From NCBI GenBank assembly GCA_004321925.1, contig SCQH01000042.1, forward strand, positions 1-64,000: a stretch of 64,000 nt of DNA, given 5' to 3'. The translations under genes and the position numbers were made by a program. Position 1 is the first letter of the stretch; each line of letters opens with the position of its first letter. Shown piece after piece: positions 8,001 through 16,770 of the stretch. A model generated the notes under the pieces. It searched no databases. It saw only the letters and a list, made by a program, of their open reading frames with translations, and was not told the DNA's origin. Origin of the DNA: Nitrospirota bacterium. Its GTDB lineage: Bacteria; Nitrospirota; Thermodesulfovibrionia; Thermodesulfovibrionales; UBA6898.

Positions 8001-8047
8001 TCTACGCAACATTACGGATAGCAACGAAAAGAAATGCCCTGTAGACT
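8001..8047 (+). promoter_or_regulatory. Candidate operator plus -10 box before STAS gene
   Basis: TCTACGCAACATTACGGATA (8001-8020) is followed after 21 bases by TAGACT (8042-8047), a weak -10-like box. The 20-mer matches a second copy at 8609-8628 at 18 positions, and that copy also has a TAnACT hexamer at exactly the same distance. The spacing puts the motif over the -35 region, as expected for an activator site. The nearby LuxR-type regulator is the obvious candidate protein. Confidence 0.5.
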
Positions 8048-8105
8048 GAAAGTGGAGTATCGCAGCGGGGATAAGATAATCGTTTTCATAGCAGAGGGGG
8101 ATCCA

Positions 8106-8552
8106 ATGTCAGATTTGATATTTGAACAGACCGGGGGTATAGGCCTGCTCCATTTGTCCGGCGAGTGGGGCTCGGAGGGTGTTGAAAAACTGCGTCAGGG
8201 ATTTATGGTCTCCTTCAGGAGCGCCGATCATGTCGTCGTGGATCTCAGGGATGTGACCGGCCTCGATGCAGGCTGCTTCAGACTGTTCTGCTCCGCATAC
8301 CGGGTATTCACCAGCAGCAGCAAACGGCTTTTACTGATCGGCCTCAGCCCGCAGATCTTTGGTGCACATGATGCTGCGGACCGGCCGGAGCAGGGCTCGC
8401 ACTGTGACGCGCTCTGCCTCAATGGCTGCCTGTGGGGCTGGAGCCCTAAAGAGATTGCGGAAGATCCGGGCGAAAGGCATTACGACGCCGGCCCTCGCAC
8501 GAACATCCTGCATACCCCGTGGGTGAACACATCATGGCGCCCTCAACAGTGA
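8106..8552 (+). CDS. STAS-domain protein (anti-sigma-antagonist-like)
   Basis: This is a small cytosolic STAS protein at the head of the chemosensory block. The ATG at 8106 follows AGAGGGGGATCC, which fixes the start; the 24 in-frame residues before it look non-coding. Residues 1-90 follow the STAS pattern, with the VVVDLRDVTGLDAGCFRLFC segment holding the loop where other family members have the phosphorylatable Ser/Thr. At this place the protein reads GLDAGC, so no clear Ser is present. The Cys-rich HCDALCLNGCLW segment is typical of STAS proteins found with chemotaxis genes. About 35 residues follow it, beyond the usual end, and look unstructured. It may link the pathway to a partner-switching module. 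Confidence 0.75.
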   Translation: MSDLIFEQTGGIGLLHLSGEWGSEGVEKLRQGFMVSFRSADHVVVDLRDVTGLDAGCFRLFCSAYRVFTSSSKRLLLIGLSPQIFGAHDAADRPEQGSHCDALCLNGCLWGWSPKEIAEDPGERHYDAGPRTNILHTPWVNTSWRPQQ

Positions 8553-8608
8553 CCTCTCTTTCAGGACGTATTGGTCCTGCCGTGCTCCCTATGCAAACCT
8601 GCGGAGGT

Positions 8609-8655
8609 TCTACGCAAGATTACGGATTGTATTGCCTCCGCTGCTGCCTTACACT
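8609..8655 (+). promoter_or_regulatory. Candidate operator plus -10 box before cheX
   Basis: TCTACGCAAGATTACGGATT (8609-8628) repeats the motif found before the STAS gene. It is followed after 21 bases by TACACT (8650-8655), and the cheX ATG is at 8694. The same element, hexamer and spacing before two consecutive genes is unlikely to be chance and suggests that cheX and the downstream che genes have their own regulated promoter. Confidence 0.5.
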
Positions 8656-8693
8656 GGGAAACAAGAGCATCAGATTCAGAAAGGGGGATTGAG

Positions 8694-9203
8694 ATGAGAT
8701 TGGATTATATCAGCTCTTTTGTGGATTCGGCCCAGAATGTGATGGAGGGCATTCTCCCGACCGCTATCACCCGGGGGGAGATCACGTTGATGGATTCCCT
8801 CTCGATCAGGGACATCTCCGCAACGATATTCCTGGTGGGCGGCGTTGACGGCCGCGTGGTCCTGGACCTTGAGAAACCGGCCGCAAAAAGGATAGCCGGT
8901 TTTATGAATAATGCCGAGTTCGCCGATATCGATCATCTGGTCCTGGACACCATCTGCGAGCTCAACAACATCATCATCGGGAAGGCGATCACCACGCTGA
9001 ACGACAAAGGGTACAGGTTCAAACCGTCGCCGCCCTGTTTTTTCATTGGAGAAAAAAGATATTTCGGCCTTGAGGCGGTCTGCATCAACCTCAGGACGGA
9101 CTGGGGCAGCATGAGGATACAGGCAGCGATCACGGAAAGACCGGGTGTCATCACCCACAATCATCGCACAGCAGACCAAGGGGGACAACGACATGCTGAA
9201 TAA
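8694..9203 (+). CDS. cheX: Chemotaxis phosphatase CheX
   Basis: CheX dephosphorylates CheY-P and resets the chemotaxis signal. The 169-aa protein matches the CheX/CheC fold: an N-terminal helix (FVDSAQNVMEGILPTAITRG), a sheet with GVDGRVVLDLEKPAAKRIAGF, and the catalytic helix motif with Glu and Asn, read here as DTICELNNIIIGKAIT. The ATG at 8694 follows AAAGGGGGATTGAG. The 41 in-frame codons upstream overlap the putative promoter and are not used. The gene overlaps cheW by 11 bases. CheZ and CheC are absent from the window, so CheX is the likely CheY-P sink here. Confidence 0.88.
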   Translation: MRLDYISSFVDSAQNVMEGILPTAITRGEITLMDSLSIRDISATIFLVGGVDGRVVLDLEKPAAKRIAGFMNNAEFADIDHLVLDTICELNNIIIGKAITTLNDKGYRFKPSPPCFFIGEKRYFGLEAVCINLRTDWGSMRIQAAITERPGVITHNHRTADQGGQRHAE

Positions 9204-9687
9204 GAACCAGGTGGTCAGATTCATCGTCGGAAAAGAATCGTTCGGAGTTGATATCGCCAGTGTCCATGAGATCGTCACCGTCCCGGAGATAACCCGGGTA
9301 CCGGACGCGCCTGATTTCCTGGAGGGGGTGATCAACCTCAGGGGCAAGATCGTCTCCGTGGTCGATCTGAGAAAAAGGCTCAGGATCAACGGAACAGATA
9401 GACATAAAAAGAACAGGATCCTGGTGACCGAGATCGATAAGAAAGTGGTCGGACTTATTGTGGACGAGGTGTCCGAGGTGCTCAGACTTAATCCTGATAA
9501 TATTGAACCGCCGCCCGAGATGATGAACTCGGTCGGGGCTGAATATATCACCGGGGTCGGAAAGCTCGAAGACAAGATCATCATACTTCTGGATATGGCA
9601 AAGGTATTGAACCACGGGGAGATAAACGTTCTCGGCATGCAGGCCGCAGAGCCGAATGCCTTATCTCATGCAATTCCCGGCAATTAG
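9193..9687 (+). CDS. cheW: Chemotaxis adaptor CheW
   Basis: CheW couples CheA to the receptor array. The 164-aa protein is a single CheW domain with VVRFIVGKESFGVDIASVHE, the central FLEGVINLRGKIVSVVDLR signature and GLIVDEVSEVLRL. The start at ATG 9193 follows AAGGGGGACAACGAC and lies inside the 3' end of cheX. The last 20 residues, after the domain, are low in conserved character. It sits directly before the binding-protein gene (10 bases) in the same operon. Confidence 0.94.
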   Translation: MLNKNQVVRFIVGKESFGVDIASVHEIVTVPEITRVPDAPDFLEGVINLRGKIVSVVDLRKRLRINGTDRHKKNRILVTEIDKKVVGLIVDEVSEVLRLNPDNIEPPPEMMNSVGAEYITGVGKLEDKIIILLDMAKVLNHGEINVLGMQAAEPNALSHAIPGN

Positions 9688-9697
9688 CGGAGGATAT

Positions 9698-10558
9698 ATG
9701 TATACGGTATCGAACAGATCTTTTCCGGCAGTGGTCATGATCTTATTGTTTATTGCCTTGTCTGCCTGCACTGCAGCGGCAGAGATCAGATTAGGAATAC
9801 TGCCAAGGCTGAACAAGGAAGCCCTCTATATGATGTTCAAGCCGCTGGGTACTTACCTTTCCGCGGAGACAGGAGAGAAGGTCAGCATCACCATCCCCCA
9901 GGACTACGGAGCCTTTAAAGAGAGGGTAAAGGCCGGGGACCTGGACCTCTGTTTTGCGAATTCCATCGTCTATATCCAGCTCAGGAAGGATATCGGCGTT
10001 GAACTTGTCGCAGGCTCCGTCGAGGGGACGGGCGGCGCCAAGTTCCGGGGCATCGTCATAGCGAGGCACGACAGCGGGATCGCAAAACTGCAGGACCTCA
10101 AGGGAAAGAAACTTGTCTTTGTGGACAAGGATGCAGCGGGCGGATATGTGTTCCAGATGCTCCTTTTTAAAAAGAATGGCCTCGATATCAATAAAGACTT
10201 TGTGACGCTTCCCTTTGCCAAAAAACATGACAGCGTGGTCATTGAGGTCTTCAACAAAAGGGCGGACGCCGGGGGCATCCGTGAAGAGGACCTGGAGAAG
10301 GTCAAGGACAAGGTCGACCTGAAGCAGATCAGGATCATCGGGTACACGGACTATTTTCCGAACTGGCCTTTTTTTGCCGCATCTCATATGGACAAAAAAA
10401 TGGTCGCAAAGATACGGGCGGCCCTGCTGAAGCTCAAGGCCGGTGACGCAGGAGCAGACAAGATACTCACGGCCGCAAAGCTGAAAGGCTTCGTAGCGGT
10501 CGCCGACAAGGACTACGATCTCCTCCGCCAGGCAGCCAGCCTGGTGGGGGCATTCTGA
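9698..10558 (+). CDS. PhnD-like periplasmic binding lipoprotein within che operon
   Basis: This 286-aa exported protein belongs to the PhnD/phosphonate-binding-like type II periplasmic binding family. The start at ATG 9698 follows GCGGAGG. The signal sequence ends in a lipobox, ALSAC, with Cys24 as the likely lipidated residue; cleavage after AAA by signal peptidase I is the alternative. The mature part shows RLGILPRLNKEALYMMFKPL, DLDLCFANSIVY and a KGKKLVFVDKDAAGGYVFQM hinge segment typical of this family. There is no permease or ATPase next to it; it lies between cheW and the MCP gene. I infer a sensory role: ligand-loaded protein presenting its signal to the neighbouring receptor. The ligand, possibly an oxyanion, is unknown. 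Confidence 0.85.
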   Translation: MYTVSNRSFPAVVMILLFIALSACTAAAEIRLGILPRLNKEALYMMFKPLGTYLSAETGEKVSITIPQDYGAFKERVKAGDLDLCFANSIVYIQLRKDIGVELVAGSVEGTGGAKFRGIVIARHDSGIAKLQDLKGKKLVFVDKDAAGGYVFQMLLFKKNGLDINKDFVTLPFAKKHDSVVIEVFNKRADAGGIREEDLEKVKDKVDLKQIRIIGYTDYFPNWPFFAASHMDKKMVAKIRAALLKLKAGDAGADKILTAAKLKGFVAVADKDYDLLRQAASLVGAF

Positions 10559-10570
10559 AAGGAGACTGCA

Positions 10571-12430
10571 ATGAAGATGACTATTGGAAGAAAACTGACG
10601 ATGGGTCTGGGTACCATGCTGGTATTGGTCATGGTCATGGGGGGCGTCTTTCTCTGGGCGACCGAGCAGGTGAAGCAGGAGATGCAGACATATCAGGAAG
10701 TGAGGAACCTTAACGGACTCCTCACCGCGCGGATCATGGACCATTACCGGTGGATGGACGGCCTTGCCTCCGGGGTCTTTATCCAGGGCAAGCCCTTCAA
10801 GGGGAAGCTCGATCCCGACGAATGCGATCTCGGCAAATGGATGGCGACGTATAAACCTGCCAATGAGGAACTGGCCGGCCCCTTCAAGGCCCTGCACGAT
10901 CCGCACAAAAAACTGCACGGGACCGCGGAACGGATCCTTGCGGCCTACAAGCTCGGCAACATAGACACTGCCCACCAGATCTTTACGGATGAGACCGTGC
11001 CGGCGGTCCATACAGTCCAGGAAAACCTCATCGGGATGAAGGATACGCTGAGAGCTCAGGAGGAAAAGGAGCATAAGCACCTGGAGGCGGTACAGCGGAG
11101 GGCCGGCATCATCAGCCTCGGACTGACCCTGTCGATCGTCGCCTTCGGCATTATCGGCGGAGTGTTCTTTGTCCGGGGGATCAACAAGCCGGTCAATAAG
11201 GTCAGGGAGGCTATGCAGAAGGTGGCCAAGGGAGACCTTACCGAAAAGGTCGAAGGGGTAAAGAGCAATGACGAGATAGGACAGATGGCGTCATACACGA
11301 ACGAGATGATAGACAGCCTCAGCTCCATGCTGGGCCAGATAAAGACGAACGCGGACCAGCTCGTGGCCGCGTCCTCCCAGATAGCCTCGTCGGCAGAGCA
11401 GACCTCGATAAACTCGGAATCTTCGGCCTCGGCCGTGGAAGAGATGACCTCGACGATGCACGAAATGTCGACGAACATACAGAACGTTGCGCGAAACACC
11501 CAGAAGCAGGCCTCCTCCGTGGTCGAGACCTCATCCTCCATCGAGCAGATGGTCTCCTCCATAAAGAGGGTCGCGGAAAATGTGAAGCGGCTCGTTGCCA
11601 TATCCGACAAGTCCAGGGAGGCTGTCTCCATAGGGGCAGGCGCGGTGAATAAGGCCTCAAACGGGATGGGAGAGATCAATGCGGCCATCCAGCAGTCGGC
11701 CCAGACGATCATAAGCCTCGGGTCGAGGACGGAAGAGATGGCGAAGATAGTCGAGGTGATAGACGATATTGCGGAGCAGACGAACCTCCTCGCGCTCAAT
11801 GCGGCCATAGAGGCGGCCAGGGCGGGCGAGCAGGGCATGGGGTTTGCGGTGGTTGCCGAAGAGGTGAGGAAGCTGGCGGAACGGTCTGCCAAATCGACCC
11901 GTGAGATCGCCGACCTCATCAAATCGGTCGCCGGCGAGGCCCAGACAGCGGTGGACCATATGACGCGCAGCACCGGCATCGTCGAGGTAGGGCTTGTTTC
12001 AAGCCGCGAGGTGATCGAGGCCCTCAGGGGGATCGAGACCGCGGTCGACGAAGTCTCGAAGTATTCCAGTGAGATAGGCGCCGCAACCCATGAACAGTCA
12101 AGCGGGTCCGAACAGATAGGAAAGGCCATGGTCAACCTCAACGAGGTCACCCAGGAGATAAGCACGGCCACAGAAGAGCAGTCCACGGGAGCGGAGCAGG
12201 TCGTTAAGGCAATAGAGAAGGTCAGGGGCATGGTGCAGCAGAACGCCTCAAGCGCCATACAGCTGGCATCGTCCGCGGAACAGCTCAATAAGCAGTCAAG
12301 CGGCCTACAGGAACTTGTTGAACGTTTCACGCTCAACGGTCACGGCAATGGGCACGGTAATGGGCACGGTAATGGGCACGGTAATGGGCACGGTGATGGC
12401 AATGGTCACGGCAACGACAGGAGCCACTGA
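10571..12430 (+). CDS. Methyl-accepting chemotaxis protein with periplasmic CZB-like domain and His/Gly/Asn tail
   Basis: This 619-aa chemoreceptor has TM1 at 10-30, a periplasmic domain at 31-180, TM2 at 181-203, HAMP at 205-260, and a long signalling domain. The tip sequence [20 protein letters not shown] identifies the CheA/CheW-binding hairpin. The periplasmic part has H58 with W61, then C85 in CDLGKW and H109/H112/H116. This is the pattern of the chemoreceptor zinc-binding (CZB) domain, which is usually cytoplasmic, so periplasmic placement is notable. The C-terminus, residues 590-619, is built from HGNG repeats and replaces a CheR-tethering pentapeptide. The gene follows the binding-protein gene by 12 bases with an AAAGGAG site, suggesting that the two act together. 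Confidence 0.92.
12341..12415 (+). repeat. 12-bp in-frame tandem repeat encoding His-Gly-Asn-Gly tail
   Basis: Six to seven near-perfect copies of a 12-base unit (CACGGTAATGGG) end the MCP reading frame and encode repeated His-Gly-Asn-Gly. The pure repeat invites copy-number change by slippage. The encoded tail could bind metal ions through its histidines or act as a flexible linker. Confidence 0.9.
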
Positions 12431-12440
12431 CAGGTGTCCC

Positions 12441-13271
12441 ATGACTGACGACGAATTCAAGATCTTCAGGAACCTGGTCCATAAGGAATGCGGGATATCC
12501 CTGTCCGAAGCCCGGAAGGATTTTCTGCGGACGAAGGTCGAGAAGCGGCTCAGCGCCCTGAACATCGGCAGTTTTTTTCAGTACTACAAATATCTCACTG
12601 AAAAGAACCAGGAGGAGATGCTCATATTCCTCGATTCCGTGACCATCAATGAGACCTATTTCTTCAGGAACCTGCCCCAGTTCGAAATGTTCGGGGAAAA
12701 AGTGCTGCCCGACCTGCTGGAAAGAAAACGCAGGGCACGGGACTACCGCCTGCATGTCTGGAGTGCCGGCTGTTCAACCGGTGAAGAGGCCTATTCGATC
12801 GCCATCCAGCTTGCCGACGCAATACCTGATGTCCAGCTCTGGGACGTCAGGATCATTGCGTCGGACATATCCCTGCGGTGTCTGGGGCTTGCCAACATCG
12901 GCAGATATTGTGCAGACAAGCTCAGGGATGTGCCTTCAAAGTATCTTTCACGGTACTTCAGGCGGGACGGTGAACATTACCTGGTCAGCGATTCCCTGAA
13001 AAAGATGGTCACCTTTGACTACCACAACCTGCAGCATGAGAACGGTCTCGAAAATATGGATGTGATATTCTGCAGGAATGTGATGATCTATTATGAGATC
13101 GCGGAGCAGAAAAGACTTGTCGGGAGGTTTGCAAAGGCCCTGAACCATGAAGGGTACCTTTTCCTGGGACATGCAGAGACCCTGCAGGGCATCACGACGA
13201 ACGGTGATTTCAAGTTCCACTGCTGGAACAAAGGGACCGCCTATCAGCGGCTGAGGGAGACCCATGGGTGA
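12441..13271 (+). CDS. cheR: Chemoreceptor methyltransferase CheR
   Basis: CheR methylates glutamates on the receptor using S-adenosylmethionine. The 276-aa protein has the helical N-domain (MTDDEFKIFRNLVHKECGI), the TINETYFFRN segment, the SAM-binding VWSAGCSTGEEAYSIAI motif, ASDISLRCL, and FCRNVMIYY. I place the start at ATG 12441, ten bases after the MCP stop; an in-frame extension upstream would run through the MCP's His/Gly repeat in another frame and is an artefact. The gene overlaps cheA by eight bases. Confidence 0.95.
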   Translation: MTDDEFKIFRNLVHKECGISLSEARKDFLRTKVEKRLSALNIGSFFQYYKYLTEKNQEEMLIFLDSVTINETYFFRNLPQFEMFGEKVLPDLLERKRRARDYRLHVWSAGCSTGEEAYSIAIQLADAIPDVQLWDVRIIASDISLRCLGLANIGRYCADKLRDVPSKYLSRYFRRDGEHYLVSDSLKKMVTFDYHNLQHENGLENMDVIFCRNVMIYYEIAEQKRLVGRFAKALNHEGYLFLGHAETLQGITTNGDFKFHCWNKGTAYQRLRETHG

Positions 13272-14922
13272 GATGACACTGACCGATGCGGACATGGCGG
13301 AACTGCGGGAGGCCTTTTTTTCGCAGGCAGGGGAGATCCTCGACAATCTCAACGGCTATATCATGGCGATCGAGAAAGATCCGGTTGAAGACAACTGGAA
13401 GGCCCTCAAGAGGGCCTTCCATACGCTGAAGGGTGACTCAAAGGCCATGGGTTTTCACAGCCTCAGCACGTTTGCGCATAAGGTGGAGGACCTGATCGCC
13501 GCCCTGAAGGACGCGGAACCCGAAAAGGCGTCCTTCGACCTGCTCCTCGGATGTGCCGACGCCTTCGGGAGCTTTGTCGAGACCGTCTCCGGAGGCGGCG
13601 AACCGGACATGGCGGATATCATGTCGCGGATCGATGCACACATCCGGTCCCGCGGGGCGCACGTTGAAAAGAATGAAAAAACGGTCGTCAGGAACGCCTC
13701 AGGGAGGGGGGCCGCCCTCTTAAAGATAGAGCCGGAACGCGTCGACAGGATCATGAACCTTGTCGGCGAACTGGTCATAGGGCGGTCCATGCTGTCGCAG
13801 ATAAATTCCGAGATCGACACGCTCCGCAGGGAGACGATAGCCTCGCGGCTTTACAACCTCAACTCGGCTTTTGAACGCACGCTCTCAGAACTGCAGCGGT
13901 CCGTCATGAAGGTGAGGATGCTGCCGGTGGAAGTGGTCTTCAGGCGTTTTCCGCGGATCGTGAGGGACCTTTCCGCAGAAAAAGGCAAGCTCGTCACCCT
14001 CAGGACCGAAGGTGAGACGACGGAACTTGACAAAGGCATCGTTGATGTCATCGGGGAGCCGCTCATGCATATCATCCGGAACTCCGTGGACCACGGGATA
14101 GAACCCCCCGCCGAAAGGGAGCTGACCGGGAAACCGAAAGAGGGTCTCATTCTCTTGAGGGCCTTCCATCAGGGCAACCAGATGGTGATCGAGGTGGAAG
14201 ACGACGGAAGGGGCATAGACATTGAGCTCCTGAAGCAGAAGGCGGTCGGCAATAATATCCTTTCTGAGGAAGAGGCAAAAAAAATCAGCGGCCAGGACGC
14301 GATAAATCTGATCTTCCTCTCGGGGCTCTCCACCTCCGACAAAATAACCGAGGTCTCCGGCAGAGGGGTCGGGATGGACATAGTAAAGGAGAACGTCGAA
14401 TCGCTCCGGGGAGTGATCGACATTGCCTCGGAAAAAGGGCGCGGGACGAAATTCACGCTCCGTCTGCCGCTGACGCTCGCAATCATAAAATCGATCCTCT
14501 TTATGCACAAAAATGAGATCTTCGCCCTCCCCATGACCTCTGTCACGGAGATAAAACGGGTCTTTCCGGAGGATATGGACACCATCGGCGGCAGATACGT
14601 CCTCAGGCACCGCGACAGCGTCATCCCGCTGATCTCCCTGGACGAAGAAGCTCTCGGCAGCGATAAGCTCTTCATCATATTTGTGGGGGTCGGTCATATG
14701 CGGGCAGGCATCATGACCGAAAAGATCCTCGGGGAAGAGGAACTGGTGATCAAGGCCCTGGACGGAAAGGCCGGGACGGGCATAGCCTCGGGGGCCTCCA
14801 TCCTCGGTAACGGCAGTGTTGTCCTGATCCTGGACCCCCTTTCCGTGATCAAAAGATACTCACCCCGGCGGGAAGACGTCATCCTGGCCAAAGAGGCGGT
14901 CTATGAAAACATCGTCAACTAG
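13264..14922 (+). CDS. cheA: Chemotaxis histidine kinase CheA, lacking P2
   Basis: CheA is the kinase of the array; it autophosphorylates and passes phosphate to CheY and CheB. The 552-aa protein has P1 (HPt) with the phosphoacceptor H53 in AFHTLKGDSKAMGF. P3 dimerisation starts near 155 (ERVDRIMNLVGELVIGRS). P4 ATPase has HIIRNSVDHGIEPP, EVEDDGRGID and GRGVGMDIV. P5 is CheW-like at 410-540. Between P1 and P3 are only about 35 residues, so the CheY-docking P2 domain is absent, giving a compact CheA. The start overlaps cheR by eight bases and the end overlaps cheB by 20. Confidence 0.95.
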   Translation: MGEMTLTDADMAELREAFFSQAGEILDNLNGYIMAIEKDPVEDNWKALKRAFHTLKGDSKAMGFHSLSTFAHKVEDLIAALKDAEPEKASFDLLLGCADAFGSFVETVSGGGEPDMADIMSRIDAHIRSRGAHVEKNEKTVVRNASGRGAALLKIEPERVDRIMNLVGELVIGRSMLSQINSEIDTLRRETIASRLYNLNSAFERTLSELQRSVMKVRMLPVEVVFRRFPRIVRDLSAEKGKLVTLRTEGETTELDKGIVDVIGEPLMHIIRNSVDHGIEPPAERELTGKPKEGLILLRAFHQGNQMVIEVEDDGRGIDIELLKQKAVGNNILSEEEAKKISGQDAINLIFLSGLSTSDKITEVSGRGVGMDIVKENVESLRGVIDIASEKGRGTKFTLRLPLTLAIIKSILFMHKNEIFALPMTSVTEIKRVFPEDMDTIGGRYVLRHRDSVIPLISLDEEALGSDKLFIIFVGVGHMRAGIMTEKILGEEELVIKALDGKAGTGIASGASILGNGSVVLILDPLSVIKRYSPRREDVILAKEAVYENIVN

Positions 14923-15988
14923 GATCCGGGTCCTCGTCGTTGATGATTCAGCCCTGATGAGGAAGATGATCCCGATGATCATCAGCGCTGATGACAGCAT
15001 CGAGGTGGTCGGGACCGCGATGGACGGTGAGTTTGCCCTGAAGAAGATCAGTGAACTCGAGCCCGATGTCGTAACGCTGGACATCGATATGCCGCGGATG
15101 GACGGGCTTGCGGCGCTGAAGGCCATAATCAGGGATTTCGGAACGCCCGTCATCCTGGTCAGCTCGCTCACCAGAGAAGGTGCAGAGACGACGCTGCGGG
15201 GGCTTGAGATGGGGGCCTTTGATTTTGTTCCTAAACCAGGCGACGCGCTTTCGGTCCATATTGCGGACATAGCACATGAGCTCATCGAAAAGATCAAGGC
15301 TGCCTCGCGGAGCCGGAGACCGAGATCCAGGGGGCCGCAGGAGGTCAGACCCAAACCGCTGCAACCGGTCGTGCGGGCGCGGCCCTTACCCTCAGAGACC
15401 GTAGTGGCCATAGGGATATCAACGGGAGGTCCTCAGGCGCTTGCAGAGATATTGCCGGACATTCCGGCTGATTTCCCTGCCGGCATTGTGATCGTGCAGC
15501 ATATGCCGGAAGGTTTCACCGACCTTTTTTCGAAGCGTCTCGACGGCATGTGCGCCATCAGGGTCAAAGAGGCCGACAACGGCGACGTGATCGGTCCGGG
15601 CATGGCCCTTATTGCGCCGGGAGGGAAGCACCTCAAGGTCAAAAGGACGCCCTTCGGCCTTGTTGCCGTTCTCAGCCAGGCCCCGACCGTGTCCGGCCAC
15701 AGGCCGTCGGCAACCGTCCTCTTCAATTCTGTCGCCGATGAGCTCGGCAGCGCCGCAATAGGCGTGATCATGACCGGCATGGGCGACGACGGGGTCGAGG
15801 GCCTTGCACGGATCAGGCAGAAGGGAGGAATGACCATTGCGCAGAATGAGGAGACATCGGTTATTTATGGCATGCCGAAAGTGGCGATCGAAAATGGATA
15901 TGCCGACATGGTCCTCGGGCTTTACGAGATAGTCCCGAGACTTGCCGGCATCGTTGAACATAATGGTGTGAAAGCCGGGGCCTCATAG
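14903..15988 (+). CDS. cheB: Chemoreceptor methylesterase CheB
   Basis: CheB removes methyl groups from receptor glutamates when phosphorylated. The receiver domain (1-125) has D14/D15 and the phospho-Asp D60 in VVTLDIDMPRMDG. After a basic proline-rich linker (about 130-165), the esterase domain carries the triad in GISTGGPQ (Ser), VQHMPEGFT (His) and TGMGDDGVEG (Asp). The 361-aa length is standard. The start lies inside the 3' end of cheA, typical of a translationally coupled che operon. Together with CheR it shows that this pathway adapts by methylation; no CheD is present. Confidence 0.95.
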   Translation: MKTSSTRIRVLVVDDSALMRKMIPMIISADDSIEVVGTAMDGEFALKKISELEPDVVTLDIDMPRMDGLAALKAIIRDFGTPVILVSSLTREGAETTLRGLEMGAFDFVPKPGDALSVHIADIAHELIEKIKAASRSRRPRSRGPQEVRPKPLQPVVRARPLPSETVVAIGISTGGPQALAEILPDIPADFPAGIVIVQHMPEGFTDLFSKRLDGMCAIRVKEADNGDVIGPGMALIAPGGKHLKVKRTPFGLVAVLSQAPTVSGHRPSATVLFNSVADELGSAAIGVIMTGMGDDGVEGLARIRQKGGMTIAQNEETSVIYGMPKVAIENGYADMVLGLYEIVPRLAGIVEHNGVKAGAS

Positions 15989-16024
15989 AAGGTCAAAGGC
16001 CCCTTTCGTTCAAGGAGGATGACT

Positions 16025-16387
16025 ATGGCAAGATTTCTGATAGTGGACGATTCCCTGTTCCAGAGGAAGAACCTCGGGAAATTCGTGCAGCAGCTCGGGT
16101 CCGAGGTGGTCGGCGAGGCGGCCAACGGCATGGAGGCCCTCACCCTGTACCGGCGCCTGAACCCGGACCTTGTCTTCATGGACCTCGTCATGCCGGAAAT
16201 GGAGGGGATCGATGCCGTTGAGAAGCTGCTGGAGATCGACCGGGACGCAAAGATCATCGTCGTCAGCTCTCTCGGCTACAGTGAGATAGTCGACAAGGCC
16301 CTGACCCTCGGGGCAAAACAATTCATAACAAAACCGATCAACTTTGAAGAGACGGCCGGCATCATCAGGTCTGTACTGGAGGAATAA
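16025..16387 (+). CDS. cheY: CheY-like single-domain response regulator 1
   Basis: This is a 120-aa free-standing receiver. The acidic pair is D8-D9, the phospho-Asp is D53 (LVFMDLVMPEMEG), the switch Ser is in VVSSLG and the Lys is in FITKPI. AAGGAGG at 16012-16018 sets the start at the second ATG (16025) because the first ATG is too close to it. The variant KPINFEETAG near the end resembles CheY proteins that act outside the flagellar switch. The stop overlaps the next cheY-like start by one base. Its output target is not visible here. Confidence 0.9.
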   Translation: MARFLIVDDSLFQRKNLGKFVQQLGSEVVGEAANGMEALTLYRRLNPDLVFMDLVMPEMEGIDAVEKLLEIDRDAKIIVVSSLGYSEIVDKALTLGAKQFITKPINFEETAGIIRSVLEE

Positions 16388-16770
16388 TGAAAAAGGTACT
16401 CTTTGTCGACGATTCATCGATCATGCGGCTTTTCGCTCGGATGTCCACCAGGAGCATCCACGGGATAAGTTTGACTGAGGCGCAGGACGGCCATGACGCC
16501 ATCGAAAAGCTCGAGAAAGAGCCTTTCGATCTCATCATAACGGACATCAATATGCCCCGGATGGACGGCCTGCAGCTGATCCGGCATGTCAGGATGATGG
16601 GGCTTAAGTTCCCCATAATAATCCTGACGACCTGCGGAGAGGAGAAGGATGTGGAAACGGGGATATTCCTTGGCGCCGATGATTACGTGACCAAGCCGAT
16701 AACGTCGCAGAAACTGACGATGCTCATCTCCAACTATACGAATGTCCCTGCCCTGCCGGTGAGCACCTGA
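16387..16770 (+). CDS. CheY-like single-domain response regulator 2
   Basis: This is a second, diverged free-standing receiver of 127 aa with D8-D9, phospho-Asp D53 (LIITDINMPRMDG), Thr in ILTTCGEEKD and Lys in DYVTKPI. It follows the first cheY with a one-base stop/start overlap. The MPRMDGLQLIRHVR helix is more like classic CheY than the first copy. Two receivers fed by one CheA suggest either one output and one phosphate sink, or two outputs. Confidence 0.9.
   Translation: MKKVLFVDDSSIMRLFARMSTRSIHGISLTEAQDGHDAIEKLEKEPFDLIITDINMPRMDGLQLIRHVRMMGLKFPIIILTTCGEEKDVETGIFLGADDYVTKPITSQKLTMLISNYTNVPALPVST

Follow-up and report, generated by a model that had tools for sequence, protein, structure and literature searches.

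A PhnD-family binding protein as proposed chemosensory co-receptor of a periplasmic CZB chemoreceptor in Nitrospirota

In a Nitrospirota bacterium, the gene for a PhnD-family solute-binding protein lies directly before the gene for a chemoreceptor (MCP) with a periplasmic CZB domain, within one chemosensory operon. The protein comes from a PhnD clade that is consistently associated with chemoreceptors; this association gives good support to the view that the binding protein is dedicated to chemoreceptors, and it speaks against a mere chance neighbourhood. With somewhat better than even confidence, it is proposed to be a dedicated co-receptor, the loaded form of which would dock on the CZB receptor, where zinc or thiol state would provide a second input to a non-flagellar output.

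Operon layout and the PhnD-family protein

The features of the operon within the window, which is the whole 64,000-nucleotide stretch of DNA analysed, are as follows.

8034..8552, +, STAS-domain protein, upstream of the operon (PF13466, 35.8 bits)
8694..9203, +, CheX phosphatase (PF13690, 43.6 bits; same place in L216)
9193..9687, +, CheW (PF01584, 140 bits)
9698..10558, +, solute-binding protein of the PhnD family (286 aa), lacking a permease and proposed as dedicated co-receptor (PF12974, 211 bits)
10571..12430, +, chemoreceptor (MCP), 619 aa (TM, HAMP, MCPsignal)
10661..10738, +, LBD membrane-proximal helix alpha-1, MCP residues 31-56, candidate docking segment (inferred)
10742..10939, +, periplasmic CZB domain, MCP residues 58-123 (PF13682, 34.9 bits; fold match 3t9o; invariant ligands)
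11021..11116, +, LBD membrane-proximal helix alpha-4, MCP residues 151-182, candidate docking segment (inferred)
12441..13271, +, CheR methyltransferase (PF01739, 200 bits)
13264..14922, +, CheA kinase (Hpt, H-kinase_dim, HATPase_c and CheW domains)
14903..15988, +, CheB methylesterase (PF01339, 219.5 bits)
16019..16387, +, CheY-like response regulator 1 (PF00072, 90 bits)
16387..16770, +, CheY-like response regulator 2 (PF00072, 95 bits)

The start of CheX at 8694 is the analysts' choice within a longer ORF (8571-9203). The genes for CheX, CheW, PhnD, MCP, CheR, CheA, CheB, and two single-domain response regulators follow each other tightly. The phnD gene starts with the ATG at 9698, 10 bases past the CheW stop (9687), and ends at 10558, leaving 12 bases to the MCP start at 10571; both genes possess a good ribosome-binding site. 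The position of a PhnD gene between cheW and an MCP gene, as described in an earlier note on this DNA, is thereby borne out.

Membership of the protein in the PhnD family is indicated by PF12974, with 211 bits against a cut-off of 27, and by the PhnD/PtxB superfamily model TIGR01098 (154 versus 112 bits), whereas the equivalog model of the phosphonate transporter component PhnD, TIGR03431, stays below its cut-off (150 versus 261 bits). By sequence and fold, the nearest solved relatives are PtxB, AioX, HtxB, and ArrX. PtxB holds the ligand oxygens by means of an STS-H motif (PMC5700983). The histidine is kept in the window protein (H155 of PtxB corresponds to H177), as is the position of Y94, and family and fold are those of the transport binding proteins PtxB, HtxB, and PhnD (PMC5700983); in contrast to these, S124/T125/S126 are replaced by A146/A147/G148 (S-A-A in most near relatives), D16 by R37, and the cap tyrosine Y203 by W223, and a PhnCE transporter is missing. 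Because of the loss of STS and the latter two exchanges, the pocket is rebuilt, unlike that of known phosphite or phosphonate binders.

The statement of the earlier note that the PhnD gene is without transporter partners holds for the entire genome as regards PhnE: no PhnE permease over cut-off is found in the own genome, which is rated 100% complete (best match 29.9 versus 216.7 bits). Ten PhnD-family domains above cut-off are present in this genome. The description of the protein as a lipoprotein has fared less well. A lipobox (LSAC) is indeed present, but a signal-peptidase I site (AxA↓E) is conserved at its place in PhnD relatives, of which the near ones show VMAC, VMVC, or no cysteine there, and the spacer between lipid and PhnD fold would be just four residues long.

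The receptor and the conservation of the pairing

The MCP contains transmembrane helices at residues 9-27 and 183-201, a HAMP domain at 199-251, and the MCPsignal domain at 358-527. Failure of the intervening domain in CZB profile searches had been set beforehand as a refuting test; residues 58-123 match PF13682 with 34.9 bits, above the curated cut-off of 29.4, and the receptor of L107 gives 33.4 bits. Since it is placed between both transmembrane helices, the CZB domain is periplasmic. The residues H58, C85, H109, H112, and H116, on which a zinc site had been postulated, are all located at the claimed positions. Among 12 periplasmic relatives with identities reaching down to 26%, H58, C85, H112, and H116 never change, in contrast to H109, and these four are therefore the likely ligands. 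This 3His/1Cys ligand set, together with the motif C-x-x-G-x-W, is kept across relatives. The structure model is confident over the CZB domain, and its best fold match in the PDB is the CZB domain of DgcZ (3t9o; probability 1.00, TM 0.76 on target, E 0.014); a sequence search of the PDB for a CZB relation returned no match at E up to 1. Sequence and fold, then, are the ground on which the periplasmic bundle is assigned a putative CZB-type zinc site with presumed occupancy by zinc. Periplasmic CZB chemoreceptors are a known minority class, with 384 putative cases or ~3.9% in a survey (PMC8262984). The window receptor shares with them the CZB domain between two transmembrane helices and the same Cys motif; unlike the pairing seen here, no binding-protein partner is described in the consulted passages of that survey. 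At the C-terminus of the MCP (window 12336-12420), a His-rich (NGHG)n repeat tail is found, which is absent in L107 and L216 and may reflect metal binding or repeat expansion.

The PhnD clade of the window protein comprises nine members in the tree (support 93/98). With the window counted, a chemoreceptor gene is the immediate same-strand neighbour of seven of the nine; for a paralogue on C113 of the own genome, an MCP-PhnD fusion gene begins 824 bp downstream, and in L110 an sCache-HAMP protein comes next, cut by the contig end. Those related loci that have a named source are from metagenome-assembled genomes of Nitrospirota (Nitrospirae). Conservation of the gene pair had likewise been set beforehand as a refuting test, and the exact combination of PhnD and CZB-MCP recurs in two genomes of another family, G165 (L107/L174) and G166 (L175). 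Their operons are arranged in the order CheW, a LivK-type binding protein, PhnD, CZB-MCP, CheR, CheA, and CheB, with two response regulators after CheB where the contig continues, and the operon proteins of window and L107 are 61-69% identical. The LivK-type protein (PF13458; L107:8789-9967) is itself an orphan binding protein adjoining PhnD in a chemosensory operon; another orphan binding protein, PstS-like (PF12849; L031:6870-7703), is encoded between two MCP genes elsewhere. In the open-access literature that was searched, PhnD-chemoreceptor pairs were looked for and none was found.

A strict dependence of the CZB receptor on PhnD is ruled out by G163, in which the same operon (L216), with CheX at the same place as in the window, lacks PhnD. 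More than 10 other periplasmic CZB receptors of the class are without a PhnD neighbour, and in L108-L112 PhnD is paired with short sCache-like receptors instead of CZB receptors. For the majority of CZB receptors there is no PhnD, and the majority of PhnD partners are not of the CZB type. From the L216 operon and the unpaired CZB receptors it follows that the receptor can work alone. The two-part sensor envisaged in the earlier note is partly supported by the conserved pair and by the consistent association of the PhnD clade with chemoreceptors, but not as an obligatory arrangement.

The natural operons with and without PhnD provide a ready comparison. The cytoplasmic part of the window receptor is 86% identical to that of L216 versus 71% to that of L107, whereas for the LBD the relation is reversed (55% versus 68%). 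The CZB core (residues 57-150) is 69% identical to both. The difference resides in the membrane-proximal helices, with alpha-1 (31-56) being 65% identical to the PhnD-paired L107 versus 27% to the PhnD-less L216, and alpha-4 (151-182) 66% versus 31%; the alpha-1 stretch of L216 resembles PhnD-free receptors (65% to L217). In the LBD tree, the PhnD-paired receptors are united (support 99/96), and a topology that groups the window with L216 fails the AU test (p=0.001). The tree of the cytoplasmic part leans the opposite way, and the PhnD-paired clade is not significantly rejected there (AU p=0.21). A mosaic history of the receptor is only suggested by these data; full recombination was discarded as an account, since the firm LBD tree is not significantly contradicted by the cytoplasmic one. 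Within the compared set, the residues E37, T40, Y41 of alpha-1 and E167, H168, H170, E172 of alpha-4 are found only in paired receptors, and both groups lie at matching distances from the membrane. Judged from the sequence comparison, they form a candidate docking patch, but as the paired receptors constitute one clade, shared ancestry would explain these residues equally well.

Ligand, proposed mechanism, and alternative readings

The sister clade of the window PhnD (support 91/92) adjoins genes of the Na:sulfate symporter family (PF00939) or the TauE/SafE family (PF01925) at 14 of 15 loci; only L187, which begins at the end of a contig and has an AprA-like flavoprotein nearby, departs from this. 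Sister clade and window protein have the pocket pattern R-F-Y-S-A in common. The window genome contains dsrA. The Na:sulfate symporter PF00939 was looked for in the own genome and is absent, so the sister-clade gene pair itself does not exist there. PhnD-like domains can serve the sensing of tetrathionate and thiosulfate, as known from TtrS and ThsS (PMC5408782). Given the loss of STS and the neighbours of the sister clade, a sulfur oxyanion or organosulfonate would be the better guess for the ligand, offered tentatively and with less than even confidence. Phosphonate or phosphite is disfavoured by the lost STS residues and the lack of PhnE, and arsenite, as bound by AioX, was dismissed because the equivalent of Cys106 is absent (A87 in the window protein). 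Of the oxyanion suspected in the earlier note, the general notion stays plausible, with the sister-clade neighbours pointing to sulfur compounds, while its phosphite/phosphonate variant loses ground with the STS part.

Conserved gene sets containing PhnD are found in L181-L186, L188, L190 and in L176-L180, L187, L189. In one such set, TauE/SafE-family genes and a molybdopterin oxidoreductase accompany PhnD, often joined by a UspA-like gene; in the other, the companions of PhnD are a Na:sulfate symporter-family gene and an AprA-like flavoprotein. Both are possible sulfur-compound modules.

In the proposed mechanism, the PhnD-type protein would serve as a dedicated periplasmic co-receptor of chemosensing instead of as part of a transporter. 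After closing around a small anion, for which a sulfur oxyanion or organosulfonate is most likely, the protein would dock in its loaded form onto the helical bundle that the neighbouring chemoreceptor exposes in the periplasm. This receptor may integrate two inputs, namely PhnD with its ligand and the state of the zinc or thiol. HAMP would relay the signal to CheW/CheA, and the output would be type IV pili or some other response of a non-flagellar kind. A search for FliG_C gave no match in the own genome (rated 100% complete) but did so in flagellated control genomes; for this reason a non-flagellar output of the operon is probable, and the chemosensory systems of this genome in general probably do not serve to steer flagella.

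According to a rather unlikely alternative, two independent sensors merely share the operon: the CZB receptor would sense zinc or oxidants alone, and PhnD would serve other receptors, for instance sCache-type or heme-type ones elsewhere in the genome. The PhnD-less operon L216, the many CZB receptors without PhnD neighbour, the predominance of non-CZB receptors beside the PhnD genes of the clade, and the ~15 chemoreceptor genes of the own genome all agree with such a separation; it does not, however, account for phnD directly preceding the receptor gene in two families, nor for membrane-proximal helices that differ according to the presence of PhnD. That the protein is still a transport protein, feeding a permease encoded elsewhere and either signalling in addition or merely travelling with the che genes, is very improbable. 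The family is named after ABC transporters, TIGR01098 is over its cut-off, and orphan binding proteins can share permeases, but the search for PhnE in the genome, rated 100% complete, stayed far below cut-off and the PhnD clade sits with chemoreceptors and not with permeases.

A degenerate or purely structural CZB site is also improbable; in that case a plain four-helix bundle would relay PhnD docking without sensing zinc or oxidants. Free zinc and redox conditions of the periplasm differ from those of the cytoplasm, which would suit such a loss. In the same direction, periplasmic CZB domains deviate from the usual Arg at position 2 of the Cys motif (PMC8262984), and Asp is found there in the window receptor. 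Against this, the invariance of the four ligands and of C-x-x-G-x-W down to 26% identity argues for a kept function. The co-receptor reading, in which PhnD and the zinc-type domain would both contribute, would bring the function of periplasmic CZB domains within reach of testing.

PhnD domains are also found in other signalling contexts of the lineage. A C-terminal PhnD domain (PF12974) is fused to chemoreceptors in the own genome (C28 and C113), at L031:4021-6873 and at L030:3770-6703 and 11134-13998, and also in L224-L234; since it follows the cytoplasmic signalling part with no later transmembrane helix, the fused domain is apparently cytoplasmic. By the analysts' count, about 90 of 230 class genomes have frames of at least 790 aa matching the MCP-PhnD fusion, and the MCP part was recognised in all 11 relatives read. 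Two own-genome copies additionally carry a Mcp40H-20 sensor domain with CxxCH heme motifs. These fused receptors are perhaps more surprising than the pair of PhnD and CZB-MCP. Secreted proteins with PhnD-PhnD in tandem are encoded at L095, L097, L098, L099, L101, L191, and relatives, where a protein of ~540 aa with two transmembrane helices follows and, at several of these loci, also one of response-regulator type; this arrangement suggests an AioX-like sensor system with a double domain. In its broadest form, the scenario is a two-input receptor, with zinc/thiol redox at the CZB domain and sulfur-oxyanion-loaded PhnD on the membrane-proximal helices; the lineage would have redirected the PhnD family from transport towards signalling, be it free, in tandem beside membrane signalling proteins, or fused to chemoreceptors in the cytoplasm; taken as a whole, this is doubtful.

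Comparison with known systems

Binding-protein-mediated chemoreception is already established in a handful of systems, in which the protein also serves transport; maltose-binding protein with Tar is of this kind. In Pseudomonas aeruginosa, ligand-loaded PstS binds to the LBD of the chemoreceptor CtpL and stimulates the receptor (PMC4926252). The likeness proposed here, a loaded binding protein acting on a chemoreceptor LBD, is drawn from genomic pairing and from the change in LBD segments. The window PhnD differs from PstS and maltose-binding protein, both of which are also transporter parts, in being without permease and in being encoded directly before the receptor gene inside the che operon. 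The novelty would lie in a binding protein apparently dedicated to a chemosensory operon and in its partner with a periplasmic zinc-type domain.

AioX, ArrX, and ArxX are periplasmic sensors of arsenic oxyanions that are encoded beside a membrane partner (PMC5908839), and AioX-type proteins are the precedent for signalling within this protein family. PhnD fold, with a close fold match, signalling use, and adjacent membrane partner are common to both, but their partner is a histidine kinase and that of the window protein an MCP, and the pocket is different, with A87 in place of Cys106 of AioX. The sensor kinases TtrS and ThsS (PMC5408782) offer a parallel for PhnD-like sensing of sulfur oxyanions, the match of the window protein to the TtrS model being weak (E 2.4e-12, far below the model cut-off); their PhnD-like domain is fused to the histidine kinase, whereas the window PhnD is a separate protein beside a chemoreceptor. 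With the pairing, PhnD-type signalling would reach beyond histidine kinases and include chemoreceptors.
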